DNA from: Leclercia sp. UBA7405
GTDB taxonomy: Bacteria > Pseudomonadota > Gammaproteobacteria > Enterobacterales > Enterobacteriaceae
DNA: 14,040 bases
Reading direction: 5' to 3'
Assembly: GCA_002469605.1 (NCBI GenBank)
Contig: DKMV01000028.1
Coordinates: 457-14,496, forward strand
Shown in pieces: positions 5,773 through 14,040 of this stretch. Under the pieces are notes generated by a model, which was not told the origin of the DNA, did not search any database, and saw only the letters and a program-made list of their open reading frames with translations. Position 1 is the first letter of the stretch; every line of letters starts with the position of its first letter. The position numbers and the translations under genes are program-made.

Positions 5773-6041
5773 CCGTAAAGCAGACCGTTGAAGTCACCAA
5801 TAAGCTGGGCATGCACGCCCGCCCGGCAATGAAGCTGTTTGAGCTGATGCAGGGTTTCGACGCTGAGGTTTTGCTGCGAAACGATGAAGGCACCGAGGCG
5901 GAAGCCAACAGCGTGATTGCGCTGTTGATGCTGGATTCCGCCAAGGGCCGTCAGATTGAAATCGAGGCAACCGGCCCGCAGGAAGAAGAGGCGCTGGCTG
6001 CCGTCATCGCGCTCTTTAACGCCGGTTTCGACGAAGATTAA
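5769..6041 (+). CDS. npr: Phosphocarrier protein NPr (nitrogen PTS HPr)
   Basis: NPr passes phosphate from EI-Ntr (PtsP) to EIIA-Ntr (PtsN). The 90-residue protein is an HPr-fold domain with active-site His16 in GMHARPA and the second conserved stretch [22 protein letters not shown]. The ATGA overlap with rapZ suggests coupled translation. The gene is also called ptsO. The TAA at 6039-6041 overlaps the 3' end of mtgA, which is read from the other strand; no terminator is visible between them. In E. coli the + strand gene yrbL comes next, but it is missing here. Confidence 0.97.
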
Positions 6042-7517: not shown

Positions 7518-7646
7518 GTGCGACCCCGAATTCCGGGCAGCGTCTTGTCACAATATGATAACAATTCACTTTACAGGCGCAGCCAAAATTTCCCTGGTGT
7601 TGGCGCAGTATTTCGCGCACCCCGGTTTAGCCGGGGTCATTTTTTT
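7518..7646 (+). ncRNA. arcZ: Hfq-dependent small RNA ArcZ
   Basis: ArcZ is an Hfq-binding regulatory RNA. In E. coli it activates rpoS translation, represses several mRNAs including arcB, and is repressed by ArcA under low oxygen. The identification rests on position (between elbB and arcB, + strand) and on the 3' half. The run TTTCCCTGGTGTTGGCGCAG (7589-7608) matches the seed of the processed E. coli form, and the terminator is the same type. The terminator stem is ACCCCGG/CCGGGGT (7619-7625 with 7631-7637), loop TTTAG, then seven T (7640-7646). The 5' half differs from E. coli and has its own small stem (CCCG/CGGG at 7525-7537). RNase E processing is expected near 7588. The terminator overlaps the last codons and stop of arcB on the other strand. 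Confidence 0.92.
7619..7646 (+). terminator. Rho-independent terminator of arcZ
   Basis: A 7-bp GC-rich stem with a 5-nt loop is followed, after CA, by seven T residues on the + strand. On the - strand the same stem lies immediately after the arcB stop but lacks a T-tract there, so it should not stop arcB transcription efficiently. Confidence 0.9.
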
Positions 7647-9970
7647 CTGCTCTCCACCCAGGCTTTCAGCACCGCCACGTCGTTCTGCCACTCCTGCTTC
7701 ATCTCTTCTATCCATTCACCAACGTTATCAGACCAGGCAGGCAGATCGGGGCTCTGGATCTGCTGACCAAGCTGTTGCAGCCGACGTAAACCCACCGAGC
7801 CCGCTGCACCCTTGATCTTGTGGCCCTCTTCCACAATGCCTTTCTGATCCCTGGCGGTCAGGTTGGACTCCAGCACCTCCAGATAGCCCGGCATCATCTT
7901 CTCGAACACGGCCAGACCATCGGTGATCAGCTTCGGTCCGACCAGCTCGATATACTGCTCAAGCATGGCGGTATCCAGCAGAGTGTGCGCTTTGTCGGTA
8001 TCAACTTTCGTCATGGTGCTCTCCTCGTCGTCACAGGTGTCCCAGAACTTCTTAATCATGGCGGTGAGTGCCGGCACGGACAGCGGCTTACTCAGCACGT
8101 CGTCCATCCCGGCCTCCAGATACTCTTTTTTGTCCTTCAGGACGTTCGCGGTCAGGGCCACCAGCGGCGGTAGCTCGTCGCGGGAATAACGGCGGGTCAG
8201 CTCGCGGGAGATATCCAGCCCGGTCATATCCGGCAACTGGATATCAAGCAGCAGCAGGTCGTACTCGCCAGGGGTAAACATCTCCAGCGCGGCCGTGCCC
8301 GTCATGGCCACATCTACGCTGCAACCCAGCTTCTCCAGCACCGAGCGGGCGACAATCACGTTCAGTTCGATATCTTCGACCAGCAGCACGTGCAGGGCTG
8401 GCAGCGGTAAATCGTCCTGCTCGAAGGTATCTTCCACCTCTTCCGCCACCGCCGGGGCATGCACGCTGAGAGAAAACACCGAGCCCTGACCCGGCTTGCT
8501 GGATACGGTAATATCGCCGCCCATGCTTTTCGCCAGCCTGCGGGAGACCGCCAGGCCAATGCCGGTGCCGGTAGCGGGTTTACCGCCCTGGCTGTCCTTC
8601 ACCTGATAGTACATGGCGAAGATCTTATCCTGCTCCTCCTGCGGAATGCCGATCCCGGAGTCTTCGACCTCGAAATGCAGCATATCCCCTTCGCCGTAGC
8701 GCACCCGCACCGCCACCTGGCCCTGCTGGGTAAATTTGACCGCGTTGCTGATGAGGTTCCACAAAATCTGACGCAGGCGCGTGCCGTCGGTGACCACCTT
8801 ATGCGGCAGCGGCAGGGCTGGCTCCATCACAAAGCGTAGCCCCTTCTGCTGGGCCTGCAGGCCGGAGAGGTTTTCCAGATCGGCGAGGAAGCTGGTGAAG
8901 TCCACCGGCTGGTTATCCAGCTGCACTTTACGCCGCTCCATCTTATCCATGTCGATAATATCGTTGAAGATATTACCCAGCGTGACCGCCGAAACGTGGA
9001 TAGTTTTGAGATATTTTTCCTGTTCTGCGGTCAGCTCGGTATCAAGCAGAATGCGGCTCAGGCCGACGATGCCGTTCAGCGGCGTGCGCAGCTCGTGGCT
9101 GATGGTGGAGATAAAGGTGGTTTTGTCCCGGCTGGCGCGCTCCAGGGCGTCCTGATAACGCTTACGCTCGGTAATATCGCGGCCAAAGCCCATCAGGCCG
9201 TGGCGCTTACCCACCCGGTCGTAGTAAGGAACTTTACGGATCTCAAAGCAGGCTTTACGCCCGTCCGGGTAGTCCAGCCACTGTTCGTAGGTCAGGGAGA
9301 CGTTATGGCGGAAGACTTTCTCATCCGTCTCGATCACCTTCGCCGCCGCCTCTTCAGAGTAGACATCCTGCGGCTTCAGGTTAATCAGCTGTTTCTCGCT
9401 CTTACCGGTGAGCAGCTCCATGGCCCGGTTGCAGCCGGAGAACTCCTTATCTTCGTTGCGATAGAAGACCAGATCCGGTGAGGCATCCAGGAACGAGCGC
9501 AGGAAAGAGGATTGCTGCTCCAGCTGGATCTGGGTCTGCTCACGCTCTTTCATCTCGACCTTGAGCTGATCCAGAGTGACGCGGCGCGCCGCTTCGGCTT
9601 TCTCGCGATCCGAAATCTCCTGATTGAGCTGGGCGATGTTATCTTTGAGCTGCACATTAAGCTTCAGGTCACGCTCGCGCATCTCCTCCAGCTTCTCCAC
9701 CAGCCGGGAGAGGCGCTGGCGCGACTCTTCAAGCTGCTCCACCACCACCGACAGAAAGTAGACCGCCCAGGGGGTAATCAACAGGCCAAAGAAAATAGAG
9801 CGGATAACGTCAATACTCTCGACCTGGCCATGCAGCACCATGGTCACCGCCATCTGTACCACAATCGCCAGCACCACTAGCGCCAGGGCCAGCAGCATGG
9901 AGAAGCGCACCAGGCCAAGCTTCATCATCAGATCGACGTAGTACTGCGCCAGCATACGAATTTGCTTCAT
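7637..9970 (-). CDS. arcB: Aerobic respiration control hybrid sensor kinase ArcB
   Basis: ArcB senses quinone redox state and phosphorylates ArcA to reset respiratory gene expression. From the ATG at 9970 it is 777 aa, one less than E. coli; the frame stays open ten codons further upstream. Domains in order: two membrane helices (about 22-45 and 58-77), a coiled-coil linker (about 78-150), a PAS domain (about 153-270) with redox cysteines Cys180 and Cys241, and a kinase core with His292 in SHELRTPLNG. The ATP lid motifs are NLISNAVKF, EDSGIGIP and GTGIGL. A receiver domain has Asp576 in LLLLDIQLPDM and an HPt domain has His717 in EEGHKIKGAAG. Extra cysteines occur at about 550 and 646. It lies downstream of lptG on the same strand, with yhcC missing. 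Confidence 0.97.
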   Translation of the reverse strand: MKQIRMLAQYYVDLMMKLGLVRFSMLLALALVVLAIVVQMAVTMVLHGQVESIDVIRSIFFGLLITPWAVYFLSVVVEQLEESRQRLSRLVEKLEEMRERDLKLNVQLKDNIAQLNQEISDREKAEAARRVTLDQLKVEMKEREQTQIQLEQQSSFLRSFLDASPDLVFYRNEDKEFSGCNRAMELLTGKSEKQLINLKPQDVYSEEAAAKVIETDEKVFRHNVSLTYEQWLDYPDGRKACFEIRKVPYYDRVGKRHGLMGFGRDITERKRYQDALERASRDKTTFISTISHELRTPLNGIVGLSRILLDTELTAEQEKYLKTIHVSAVTLGNIFNDIIDMDKMERRKVQLDNQPVDFTSFLADLENLSGLQAQQKGLRFVMEPALPLPHKVVTDGTRLRQILWNLISNAVKFTQQGQVAVRVRYGEGDMLHFEVEDSGIGIPQEEQDKIFAMYYQVKDSQGGKPATGTGIGLAVSRRLAKSMGGDITVSSKPGQGSVFSLSVHAPAVAEEVEDTFEQDDLPLPALHVLLVEDIELNVIVARSVLEKLGCSVDVAMTGTAALEMFTPGEYDLLLLDIQLPDMTGLDISRELTRRYSRDELPPLVALTANVLKDKKEYLEAGMDDVLSKPLSVPALTAMIKKFWDTCDDEESTMTKVDTDKAHTLLDTAMLEQYIELVGPKLITDGLAVFEKMMPGYLEVLESNLTARDQKGIVEEGHKIKGAAGSVGLRRLQQLGQQIQSPDLPAWSDNVGEWIEEMKQEWQNDVAVLKAWVESRKK

Positions 9971-9976
9971 AGAGGA

Positions 9977-9982
9977 TTCCTT
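9977..9982 (-). promoter_or_regulatory. Ribosome binding site fixing the arcB start
   Basis: Read on the - strand this is AAGGAA, 6 nt before the ATG at 9968-9970. It supports the MKQIRMLAQYY start and excludes the ten-codon extension to 10000, which would contain it. Confidence 0.7.
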
Positions 9983-9999
9983 CACGGCTTCATCGCACA

Positions 10000-10005
10000 A
10001 TAATA
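10000..10005 (-). promoter_or_regulatory. Candidate arcB promoter -10 element
   Basis: On the - strand this reads TATTAT, preceded by TTGAG and located 29 nt before the arcB ATG. The hexamer 17 nt upstream (CAACGC) is a poor -35, so the call is tentative. If real, arcB kept its own promoter after the rearrangement and the breakpoint lies to its right. Confidence 0.3.
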
Positions 10006-10009
10006 CTCA

Positions 10010-10069
10010 AATTCCGGGCAAGGCGTTGAAGGTTGTGCGAAAAAGTGCGGCGTGGGACGAAGAGAAGTG
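10010..10069. other. Probable breakpoint interval of a chromosomal inversion (arcB/lptG junction)
   Basis: This roughly 60-nt interval separates the arcB leader from the lptG terminator hairpin. As I recall the E. coli map, yhcC lies upstream of arcB, while lptFG-pepA is over 1 Mb away on the other side of oriC. The segment therefore joins two normally distant loci. No insertion sequence, long repeat or inverted repeat is visible in it. The call is inferred from gene order, not from a junction motif. Confidence 0.6.
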
Positions 10070-10095
10070 CCTCACTCCCGCAGCGGGGAGTGAGG
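10070..10095 (-). terminator. Hairpin downstream of lptG, weak intrinsic terminator
   Basis: CCTCACTCCC (10070-10079) pairs perfectly with GGGAGTGAGG (10086-10095), a 10-bp stem with a 6-nt loop, 10 nt after the lptG stop. On the - strand the stem is followed by CACTTCTCTTCG, a pyrimidine-rich but poor U-tract. Some read-through into arcB is therefore possible. Confidence 0.6.
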
Positions 10096-10105
10096 TAAAG
10101 CGAGA

Positions 10106-11188
10106 TCAGGAGCGTCGGAGCATCAGCCAGAGGCTGATAAGGAAGAACGACGCGCTGGGCAGCAGAGCGCCAATCACCGGCGGAATGCCGTAGACCAGGG
10201 TCAGCGGGCCGAAGATCTGATCCAGCACGTAGAAGACGAAGCCGAAGCTGATGCCGGTAACCACACGTACCCCCATGGCCACGCTACGCAGCGGCCCGAA
10301 GATAAACGACAGGGCCATCAGCATCATCACCGCCACCGAGAGCGGCTGGAAGATTTTGCTCCACATATTGAGCTGGTAACGCCCCGCATCCTGGCCGCTC
10401 GACTTCAGGTACTTCACATAGTTGTGCAGGCCGCTGATAGAGAGCGCATCCGGATCCAGCGCCACCACGCCAAGCTTGTCCGGCGTCAGGTTGGTTTTCC
10501 AGGTCCCGGATACTGTCTGTGAACCGGTGATCTGCTTTGGATCTTTCAGGTTAGATTCATCCACCTGCGACAGACGCCAGACTTTATTTTCCGCATCGAA
10601 GGTTGCCGAGGCCGCATAGCGCACCGCCTGCAGACGACGCTGGTCGTTAAAGCTGTAAATGCTCACGCCGCCGAGAGAATTATCCCCCTTCACGCGCTCA
10701 ATATAAACAAAGTTATTGCCGTCTTTCGCCCACAGCCCCTGCTGGGTGGAGAGCAGCGAACCGCCATACATCGCCTGCGCACGGTAGTTACGCGCCATCT
10801 GCTCGCCCTGGGGCGCGACCCACTCGCCGATGGCCATGGTCAGCAGCACCAGCGGGATGGCGGTTTTCATTACCGACAGCGCCACCTGCATACGGGTGAA
10901 GCCGGAAGCCTGCATCACCACCAGCTCGCTGCGCTGGGCCAGCATCCCCAGCCCCAGCAGCGCCCCTAACAGGGCCGCCATCGGGAAGAAGATCTGAATA
11001 TCTTTCGGCATGCTGAGCAGGGTATACATCCCGGCGCCCAGCGCGTCGTAACTCCCCTGCCCGGCTTTTTTCAGCTGATCGACAAACTTGATGATGCCGG
11101 AGAGAGAGACCAGCATGAAGAGGGTCATCATGATGGTGGTGAAAATGGTTTTACCGATATAGCGGTCTAAAACGCGAAACGCCTGCAT
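10106..11188 (-). CDS. lptG: LPS export permease LptG
   Basis: LptG pairs with LptF and two LptB subunits to form the inner-membrane transporter that pulls LPS into the LptC-LptA bridge. The 360-residue protein has the LptF/LptG (YjgP/YjgQ) layout. It has three membrane helices in the first third (about 12-35, 60-85 and 98-125), a periplasmic beta-jellyroll (about 130-265) and three C-terminal helices (about 275-358). Recognisable stretches include MQASGFTRMQVALSVMKT (coupling helix to LptB), GLWAKDGNNFVYI and the conserved GRYQLNMWSKIFQPLSV. Length equals E. coli LptG. Its ATG overlaps the lptF stop by one base (TAATG on the - strand at 11186-11190), so the two are translationally coupled. 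Unlike in E. coli, the next gene downstream is arcB. Confidence 0.97.
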   Translation of the reverse strand: MQAFRVLDRYIGKTIFTTIMMTLFMLVSLSGIIKFVDQLKKAGQGSYDALGAGMYTLLSMPKDIQIFFPMAALLGALLGLGMLAQRSELVVMQASGFTRMQVALSVMKTAIPLVLLTMAIGEWVAPQGEQMARNYRAQAMYGGSLLSTQQGLWAKDGNNFVYIERVKGDNSLGGVSIYSFNDQRRLQAVRYAASATFDAENKVWRLSQVDESNLKDPKQITGSQTVSGTWKTNLTPDKLGVVALDPDALSISGLHNYVKYLKSSGQDAGRYQLNMWSKIFQPLSVAVMMLMALSFIFGPLRSVAMGVRVVTGISFGFVFYVLDQIFGPLTLVYGIPPVIGALLPSASFFLISLWLMLRRS

Positions 11189-12288
11189 TACACCGCTCCT
11201 TTACGCATAAAACGGGCCCTGATACGGCGCATCGGCACGGTGTCCCACAGGTTAAGCGCGACGGCCAGCAGCAGGTAGAGGCCATTCACGACCCAGGTCC
11301 AGACAACCGGATCGATTTTGCCTTTGCCGCCGTTGGACTTAATGGATGTCTGCAGCAGGAAGAACACCAGATAGAGCAGCATCGCCGGCAGCATGGAAAG
11401 AACACGCCCCTGACGCGGGTTGACCACGCTCAGCGGCACCACCATCAGCGCCATCATAAATACGGTGAATACCAACGTAATACGCCAGTGCAGCTCAGCC
11501 CGGGCGCGATCGGTATCGGTGTTTATCAGTGTGCGCATATTCATCTGCTCGGTATCGCTGGGATCCAGCGCCACCGCCTGATGGCCAATAATTGCCTGAT
11601 AATTCTGGAAGTCGGTAATGCGGAAATCCCGTAGCAGGGCGGTGCCTTCGAAGCGGGTGCCTTTGTTCAGCGTCACTATCTGCGAGCCGTCTTTGGTCTG
11701 GGAAAGCTGACCCGAATCGGCGACTACCACAGAGGGGCGAGCGTTGCCCTTAGGGCGGATTTGCGCGAGGAAAACGTCATTGAACCGGCTGCCATCCACG
11801 CTTTCAATAAAGAGCACGGAGTTGCCGTCTGTCGCCTGCTGGAACTGGCCCTGCGCCAGCGCCGCCATGCCGGGGTTCGCTTTCGCCTCGGCCAGCACCT
11901 CATCCTGATGGCGGGAAGACCAGGGGCCAGCCCACATCACGTTGACTGCCGCCACAATGCCGGTGAAGAGTGCCAGCACCATCGCGGCTTTCACCAGCAC
12001 GGCTTTACTCAGGCCACAGGCATGCATGACGGTAATTTCGCTTTCGGTATAAAGCTTACCGAGCGTCATCAGCAATCCAAGGAACAGGCTCAACGGCAGG
12101 ATGAGCTGTGCCATTTCAGGCACGCCTAACCCGAGCAGGGAAAGCACCAGATTTGTAGGAATTTCGCCGTCTACCGCCGCGCCGAGGATCCTGACCAGTT
12201 TCTGACAGAAAAAAATCAGAAGCAGGATGAAGAGTATCGCCAGCTGGCTTTTAAGCGTCTCCCGCACCAGATATCTTATGATTATCAC
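11188..12288 (-). CDS. lptF: LPS export permease LptF
   Basis: LptF is the second transmembrane subunit of LptB2FG. It is 366 aa, the E. coli length, with N-terminal helices at about 12-33, 55-78 and 98-120, a periplasmic jellyroll, and three C-terminal helices from about residue 270. The cytoplasmic stretch SEITVMHACGLSKAVLVKAA is the coupling helix region that contacts LptB, and WAGPWSSRHQDEVLAEAKANPGM follows the third helix. Translation begins at a GTG (12286-12288), as in E. coli as far as I recall, and no clear Shine-Dalgarno precedes it, implying modest initiation. It is divergent from pepA across a 261-nt region and heads the lptF-lptG pair. Confidence 0.97.
   Translation of the reverse strand: MIIIRYLVRETLKSQLAILFILLLIFFCQKLVRILGAAVDGEIPTNLVLSLLGLGVPEMAQLILPLSLFLGLLMTLGKLYTESEITVMHACGLSKAVLVKAAMVLALFTGIVAAVNVMWAGPWSSRHQDEVLAEAKANPGMAALAQGQFQQATDGNSVLFIESVDGSRFNDVFLAQIRPKGNARPSVVVADSGQLSQTKDGSQIVTLNKGTRFEGTALLRDFRITDFQNYQAIIGHQAVALDPSDTEQMNMRTLINTDTDRARAELHWRITLVFTVFMMALMVVPLSVVNPRQGRVLSMLPAMLLYLVFFLLQTSIKSNGGKGKIDPVVWTWVVNGLYLLLAVALNLWDTVPMRRIRARFMRKGAV

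Positions 12289-14040
<1,752 letters not shown>

Follow-up and report, generated by a model that had tools for sequence, protein, structure and literature searches.

The adjacency of arcB and lptG in a 14,040-nucleotide stretch of DNA from Leclercia sp. UBA7405 (hereafter the window) is probably one scar of a single, old, clade-wide translocation between replichores, brought about by two successive inversions spanning oriC. A block of housekeeping genes, lptG-lptF-pepA-holC-valS-yjgM-ahr-DAK-yjgR (with DAK a dihydroxyacetone-kinase-like gene), has moved from one arm of the chromosome, where its ancestral neighbours are miaE (rraB in genomes that lack miaE) and leuX, to the opposite arm, where it separates arcB from yhcC at roughly the mirror distance from oriC. 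The junction is real, is neither recent nor peculiar to the genome in which it was noticed, and is ordinary for its clade.

The window contains kdsC-lptC-lptA-lptB-rpoN-hpf-ptsN-rapZ-npr on the forward strand, mtgA-elbB-arcB followed by lptG-lptF on the reverse strand, and pepA on the forward strand. The genes rapZ, npr, mtgA, elbB, arcB, lptG, lptF and pepA were named by matching K-12 proteins, and those from kdsC to ptsN we take to be the genes so named on the basis of gene order and sequence. The resident gene arcB (7637..9970, reverse strand) forms the left edge of the insertion point and has elbB, mtgA and npr after it, an order unchanged from the ancestor; its start was set at the ATG at 9970, the list of open reading frames having an upstream TTG at 10000, 30 bases further out. 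The translocated block begins with lptG (10106..11188, reverse strand), its outermost gene on the arcB side, and continues with lptF (11188..12288, reverse strand) and pepA (about 12550..14040, forward strand), which is partial in the window. Beyond pepA, complete relatives have holC, valS, yjgM, ahr, DAK and yjgR. The ArcZ small RNA is at 7518-7632 (forward strand), between elbB and arcB as in K-12 (Rfam RF00081, 87.4 bits). A match to Rfam RF02850 (Ysr276; 168.7 bits, cut-off 100) lies antisense to pepA at 13108-13302 (reverse strand), and may merely reflect the conserved pepA coding sequence. The npr and mtgA frames overlap by 4 bases (6038-6041), and no yrbL was found between them, where K-12 and Citrobacter R56 have it.

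The gap between arcB and lptG is 135 bp long (9971-10105). Its arcB-proximal part (9971..10050, reverse strand) resembles, by eye, the arcB leader of K-12, Citrobacter, Kluyvera and others, appears to have been kept through the event, and includes an imperfect 13-bp dyad (9988-10000/10033-10045). Nearer to lptG there is a 10-bp perfect hairpin (10070-10095, reverse strand) with a T-rich tail after it on the strand of lptG, the whole resembling an intrinsic terminator at the end of lptG and separating that gene from arcB; the region 9900-10200 has one such hairpin, and shuffled versions of it average 0.1. The crossover would be expected in the interval from the end of the arcB-like leader to the start of the lptG terminator (10050..10069, judged by eye), and arcB probably retained its own leader and lptG its own terminator. 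No direct repeat was found in the derived gap, and a scan of 9900-10200 gave no sigma-70-like promoter. An earlier note on this DNA had described the gap as short and without repeats; it is short, but the hairpin and the dyad are present in it.

A probe of 1,001 bases across the junction, with up to seven candidates scored per genome, gave a junction-spanning match in all 61 genomes of the genus, 15 of these in one contig, and the junction is thus no assembly error. There was one strong place per genome among these best candidates (up to seven each), with one further weak and short match in three genomes. Across the family the probe matched 211 of 295 genomes, and among the matches listed, which are ranked by score such that a continuous one would come first, it was continuous in three, all of the window's genus. 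When 80 named lptG loci are compared, arcB lies directly beyond lptG in 20, which are recorded as Enterobacter, Leclercia, Lelliottia, Silvania, Pseudenterobacter, Huaxiibacter, Enterobacteriaceae bacterium RIT714 and metagenome bins. The other 60 comprise 41 in which yjgR adjoins lptG, two (L051 and L071) with a third arrangement, and 17 with another gene or nothing recognised at that position (a DAK gene beyond lptG in ten, idnR in one, yjgR 7 kb off in one, a contig end in one, and no query gene in four). These 60 include six loci labelled 'Enterobacter sp.', none of which groups with the junction loci in a tree of PepA, LptF and LptG.

In this tree (81 rows, quick method, SH-aLRT support only, midpoint root) the junction corresponds to one change, its 21 rows forming one side of a branch with an SH-aLRT value of 94. 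The junction is ancestral for the loci named Enterobacter, Lelliottia, Leclercia, Silvania, Pseudenterobacter and Huaxiibacter, and is absent from the other sampled genera. The earlier note had proposed a new inversion – one to be regarded as ancestral if the order were general among related genera, and as a misjoin if the true assembly differed. Its misjoin is contradicted by the 61 genomes, and the novelty has to be given up for a state ancestral to these six genera, although not to the others sampled. Some record names disagree with the tree: 'Chryseobacterium sp. 18061' (L055) is enterobacterial, 'Enterobacter sp. JUb54' (L063) groups with Raoultella, and 'Enterobacter sp. CC120223-11' (L071) groups with Pluralibacter sp. 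UBA7423.

The recipient site has the same order in five complete genomes of the clade, npr-mtgA-elbB-arcB/lptG-lptF-pepA-holC-valS-yjgM/ahr...yjgR/yhcC-gltB (slashes mark joins), with DAK between ahr and yjgR wherever checked in clade loci; in genome G031 lptG and yjgR delimit a block of about 12.5 kb. At the donor site argI-rraB-miaE is followed within about 0.9 kb by leuX, the tRNA-Leu(CAA) gene, in five of five loci (leuX identified by ARAGORN), and the space between miaE and leuX has an open reading frame of some 230 codons in two sequences inspected by eye. In K-12 and Citrobacter R56 the segment yjgM...lptG-yjgR...ahr sits between rraB or miaE and leuX. The derived block is the ancestral one with its ends exchanged, such that the former neighbours lptG and yjgR are now its outer genes.

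Besides arcB/lptG, the genus carries the other three joins nearly throughout: yjgM/ahr in 60 of 61 genomes, yjgR/yhcC in 58 (the remaining three match the yhcC half only), and miaE..leuX in 60 (one as two abutting pieces). The single genome lacking yjgM/ahr and miaE..leuX is that of the window, which is 79.6% complete. Of the 80 named loci, 18 have both the junction and yjgM, and in every one of these ahr lies upstream of yjgM; in 53 other loci that position is taken by miaE or rraB. In the window's genome another contig (C136, locus L173) has gltB, yhcC and then DAK, which is the far end of the block without yjgR. Genome G056 (L176) likewise has DAK next to yhcC and no yjgR there, and G053 (L175), also without yjgR, retains no more than a remnant of DAK beside yhcC. 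The DAK gene product scores 568.3 bits with the NCBIfam model dak_ATP, just below the cut-off of 574.95, and is described here as kinase-like.

The K-12 map given in the earlier note is right: arcB (3,350,689-3,353,025, reverse strand) adjoins yhcC (reverse strand), oriC is at 3,925,744-3,925,975, and pepA(-), lptF(+), lptG(+) and yjgR(-) lie at 4,484,440-4,490,063. Its view of arcB/lptG as a rearrangement breakpoint relative to E. coli also holds, as do the near-equal distances from oriC in K-12, which are 572.8 kb for arcB/yhcC and 562.6 kb for lptG/yjgR; those of rraB/yjgM and ahr/leuX are 553.1 and 570.4 kb. The note had read the order as an apparent inversion, around the origin, of everything from yhcC through lptG, with a reciprocal junction expected where yhcC-gltB meets the genes normally beyond lptG. 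Both joins that this predicts, arcB/lptG and yjgR/yhcC, exist, but the second lies on the same arm as the first, about 12.5 kb away, and the large inversion is absent from the present chromosome: in five of the five complete clade genomes examined, gltB, mdh, fusA and rpoH on the arcB side and rpoB, groL, deoB and dnaK on the other arm are arranged and oriented as in K-12. Because the two joins bracket only this short block, either one inversion was followed by a second or the block moved in some other way.

We favour two inversions. The first – that of the earlier note – would have cut arcB/yhcC and lptG/yjgR, producing arcB/lptG and yhcC/yjgR; the second would have cut miaE/yjgM and ahr/leuX, flipping the origin region back and stranding the block on the wrong arm. 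Both would have happened before Enterobacter and its nearest relatives diverged. All joins expected from this pair are found, and the same four would follow from a reinserted circle. No genome with the first inversion only was seen among the 61 of the genus and 295 of the family, and the genus genomes also carry the second pair of joins, except the window's incomplete one.

With oriC outside K-12 placed by the K-12 offset from atpD, the five clade genomes have arcB/lptG at 521-560 kb from oriC and the donor scar at 536-626 kb, differing by 10-104 kb; the breakpoint asymmetry in other outgroups is 22 kb in Kluyvera, 73 kb in JUb54 and 89 kb in Citrobacter R56. Since the block is inverted, its direction relative to replication is kept, and lptG is co-directional with the fork both before (K-12) and after (clade) the move. 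The breaks are intergenic, and together with the leader and terminator seemingly kept and the unchanged direction relative to replication this suggests that the change may be nearly neutral.

In all five clade genomes (G031, G039, G353, G354 and G355) the origin core, represented by dnaA and atpD and, in those that list it, mnmG, is inverted with respect to the flanking markers, so at least one more origin-spanning inversion has occurred, and restoring the orientation of the origin is accordingly an insufficient reason for the second inversion to have accompanied the first. Of the four of these genomes with an entry for glyS, G039 and G354 have this gene inverted with the origin core and G353 and G355 do not, which indicates origin inversions of more than one size. 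The origin core is inverted in E. coli E69 (G357) too.

The strongest alternative, which we consider unlikely, is excision of the block as a circle with ahr joined to yjgM, which then opened between lptG and yjgR and was integrated between arcB and yhcC. The present order is an exact circular permutation of the ancestral one, the donor site is closed, and leuX lies at one edge of it; in K-12 a cryptic prophage follows leuX, so integration at this tRNA gene is possible. Against a circle, the rough chance of its landing as near the mirror point is 0.4% (using the K-12 asymmetry) to 3.8% (using that of Citrobacter), a post hoc estimate that is halved if the strand must be kept. Two inversions are favoured over a circle by the rough mirror symmetry, by the inversion of the block that keeps its direction relative to replication, and by related events at the same breakpoints. 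Against them are the loose symmetry in Citrobacter and JUb54 and a broad survey in which, in the excerpt used here, translocations are about as frequent as inversions and mobile elements are named as the main drivers (PMC12863080).

There are two such related events. In genome G242, arcB/ytfP-tamB-tamA and yhcC/ppa-ytfQ are both joins of one plain inversion with a break at arcB/yhcC; in E. coli ytfP and ppa are neighbours apart from chpSB. Genomes G361 and G362 have npr/miaE-rraB-argI-810-aa ORF/yhcC on one arm and mgtA/arcB-elbB-mtgA/yjgM on the other, a reciprocal swap in which both blocks are inverted, the arms being assigned from gene identity in these draft genomes. Such a swap is the direct result of two inversions and is impossible for one circle, nor could circles achieve it in two steps, and this too favours inversions. 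For L051 and L071 a reading as a single inversion was rejected, since rraB is located between npr and yhcC, as in a reciprocal swap. The swapped pair forms a separate clade (value 99), and its nearest loci in the tree (L055, L054 and L077) show the ancestral order around lptG. The names MiaE (421.4 bits against 320) and ornithine carbamoyltransferase (729.9 against 559) are supported by NCBIfam; identification of the 810-aa ORF as a hexosaminidase was rejected, its best NCBIfam match scoring 27.9 bits against a cut-off of 1000. A relative of this ORF lies about 19 kb from argI in G031, and in E. coli ridA-pyrI-pyrB is beside mgtA.

The arcB/yhcC gap is therefore broken in three lineages – the window's clade, G361/G362 and the genus of G242, where the event is a plain inversion, which again counts against a circle – and miaE/yjgM is broken in two. 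We surveyed yhcC and arcB in 69 family genomes outside the genus, counted by hand and chosen among those with a match to the junction probe, mostly with one genome per genus and with small genomes omitted. The two are adjacent in 56 (32 as one match and 24 as two pieces within 6 kb), apart in three, all of one genus, and represented by one piece only in ten. Some adjacent pairs are separated by kilobase-sized spacers, about 4 kb (12902-16857) in the K. pneumoniae scaffold L135 and 1-5 kb in G102, G156 and G121, and the gap thus seems permissive. In some genera (e.g. G077, G087, G134 and G168) arcB and lptG are 70-125 kb apart on one contig; we left these as separate large rearrangements, in which the yhcC-arcB and lptG neighbourhoods are kept save for small changes.

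Repeats were considered as a cause of these rearrangements. REP-like motifs are present in 19 of 46 lptG-yjgR gaps versus one of eight arcB-yhcC gaps, many of these loci coming from the same or related genomes and being non-independent, and this motif test gave no signal of a common repeat at paired breakpoints. REP-like motifs also occur in 45 of 100 holC-pepA gaps versus none of 101 pepA-lptF gaps, these loci likewise being non-independent. As a conjecture, and an unlikely one, mirror-image small translocations in enterobacteria might come from paired origin-spanning inversions reusing permissive intergenic gaps such as arcB/yhcC and miaE/yjgM. The two arms might perhaps recombine in a double exchange where replication forks are paired, within one replication cycle; inversions would then be retained two at a time, and moved or swapped blocks would be the trace they leave.

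Highly improbable is the acquisition of the block from another species at arcB/yhcC with loss of the native copy. It too would leave a closed donor site, but the block genes group the clade together within the family (in a tree built from block genes only), the junction probe finds a single strong site in each genome among the candidates scored, and valS and lptFG, which are essential, would have to have been duplicated and then lost. A single large origin-symmetric inversion as the present state accounts for both of the joins it predicts, yet the collinearity of gltB, mdh, fusA and rpoH with K-12 and the short distance between the joins make it extremely improbable. A misjoin is the least credible of all despite an assembly in 396 contigs, given the junction throughout the genus and in 20 of the 80 named loci, and the far end of the block beside yhcC on contig C136.

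The ancestral, one-inversion and two-inversion states are all present among related genera, and a statistical pattern – change of replichore at constant distance from the origin – becomes a case whose steps can be read from its scars. The four joins also constitute a rare and hard-to-reverse marker that unites the sampled Enterobacter, Leclercia, Lelliottia, Silvania, Pseudenterobacter and Huaxiibacter. Among openly licensed PMC papers none was found that combines arcB, lptG, Enterobacter and inversion, and no title or opening of an abstract among those listed names the event.

Origin-symmetric inversions, or replication-associated structural rearrangements, were reportedly described in 2000 by Eisen and by Tillier and Collins. 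They have been called the dominant form of bacterial structural variation (D'Iorio and Dewar 2022, PMC9584773, as excerpted). As in those inversions, the breaks described here are on both arms at similar distances from oriC and the intervening segment would have been inverted, and G242 has one with the same left breakpoint; the net product differs from what the excerpt describes in being a small translocated block and not an inverted origin segment. In Yersinia the canonical configuration of origin and dif implies that inversions cancel in pairs, as deduced from histories of 79 inversions; this pairing was ascribed to selection, the authors stating in the portion used here that they knew of no plausible pairing mechanism (Darling 2008, PMC2483231). 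Unlike those pairs, as they are presented in that portion, the probable pair described here is read from its scars.

The case is a well-resolved example of the already known symmetric inter-replichore translocation, in which genes switch replichore at near-equal distance from oriC with strand bias kept, and which its authors tie, in the text available, to chromosome topology and paired replication forks (Khedkar and Seshasayee 2016, PMC4889656). Like the cases reported there, the block of the window's clade has changed replichore with its distance from oriC nearly unchanged and its orientation to replication kept. Where the available text of that study has genes counted in bins, the present analysis follows one event through its four joins, its donor scar, its single appearance on the tree, a probable path of two inversions, and related cases at the same breakpoints.
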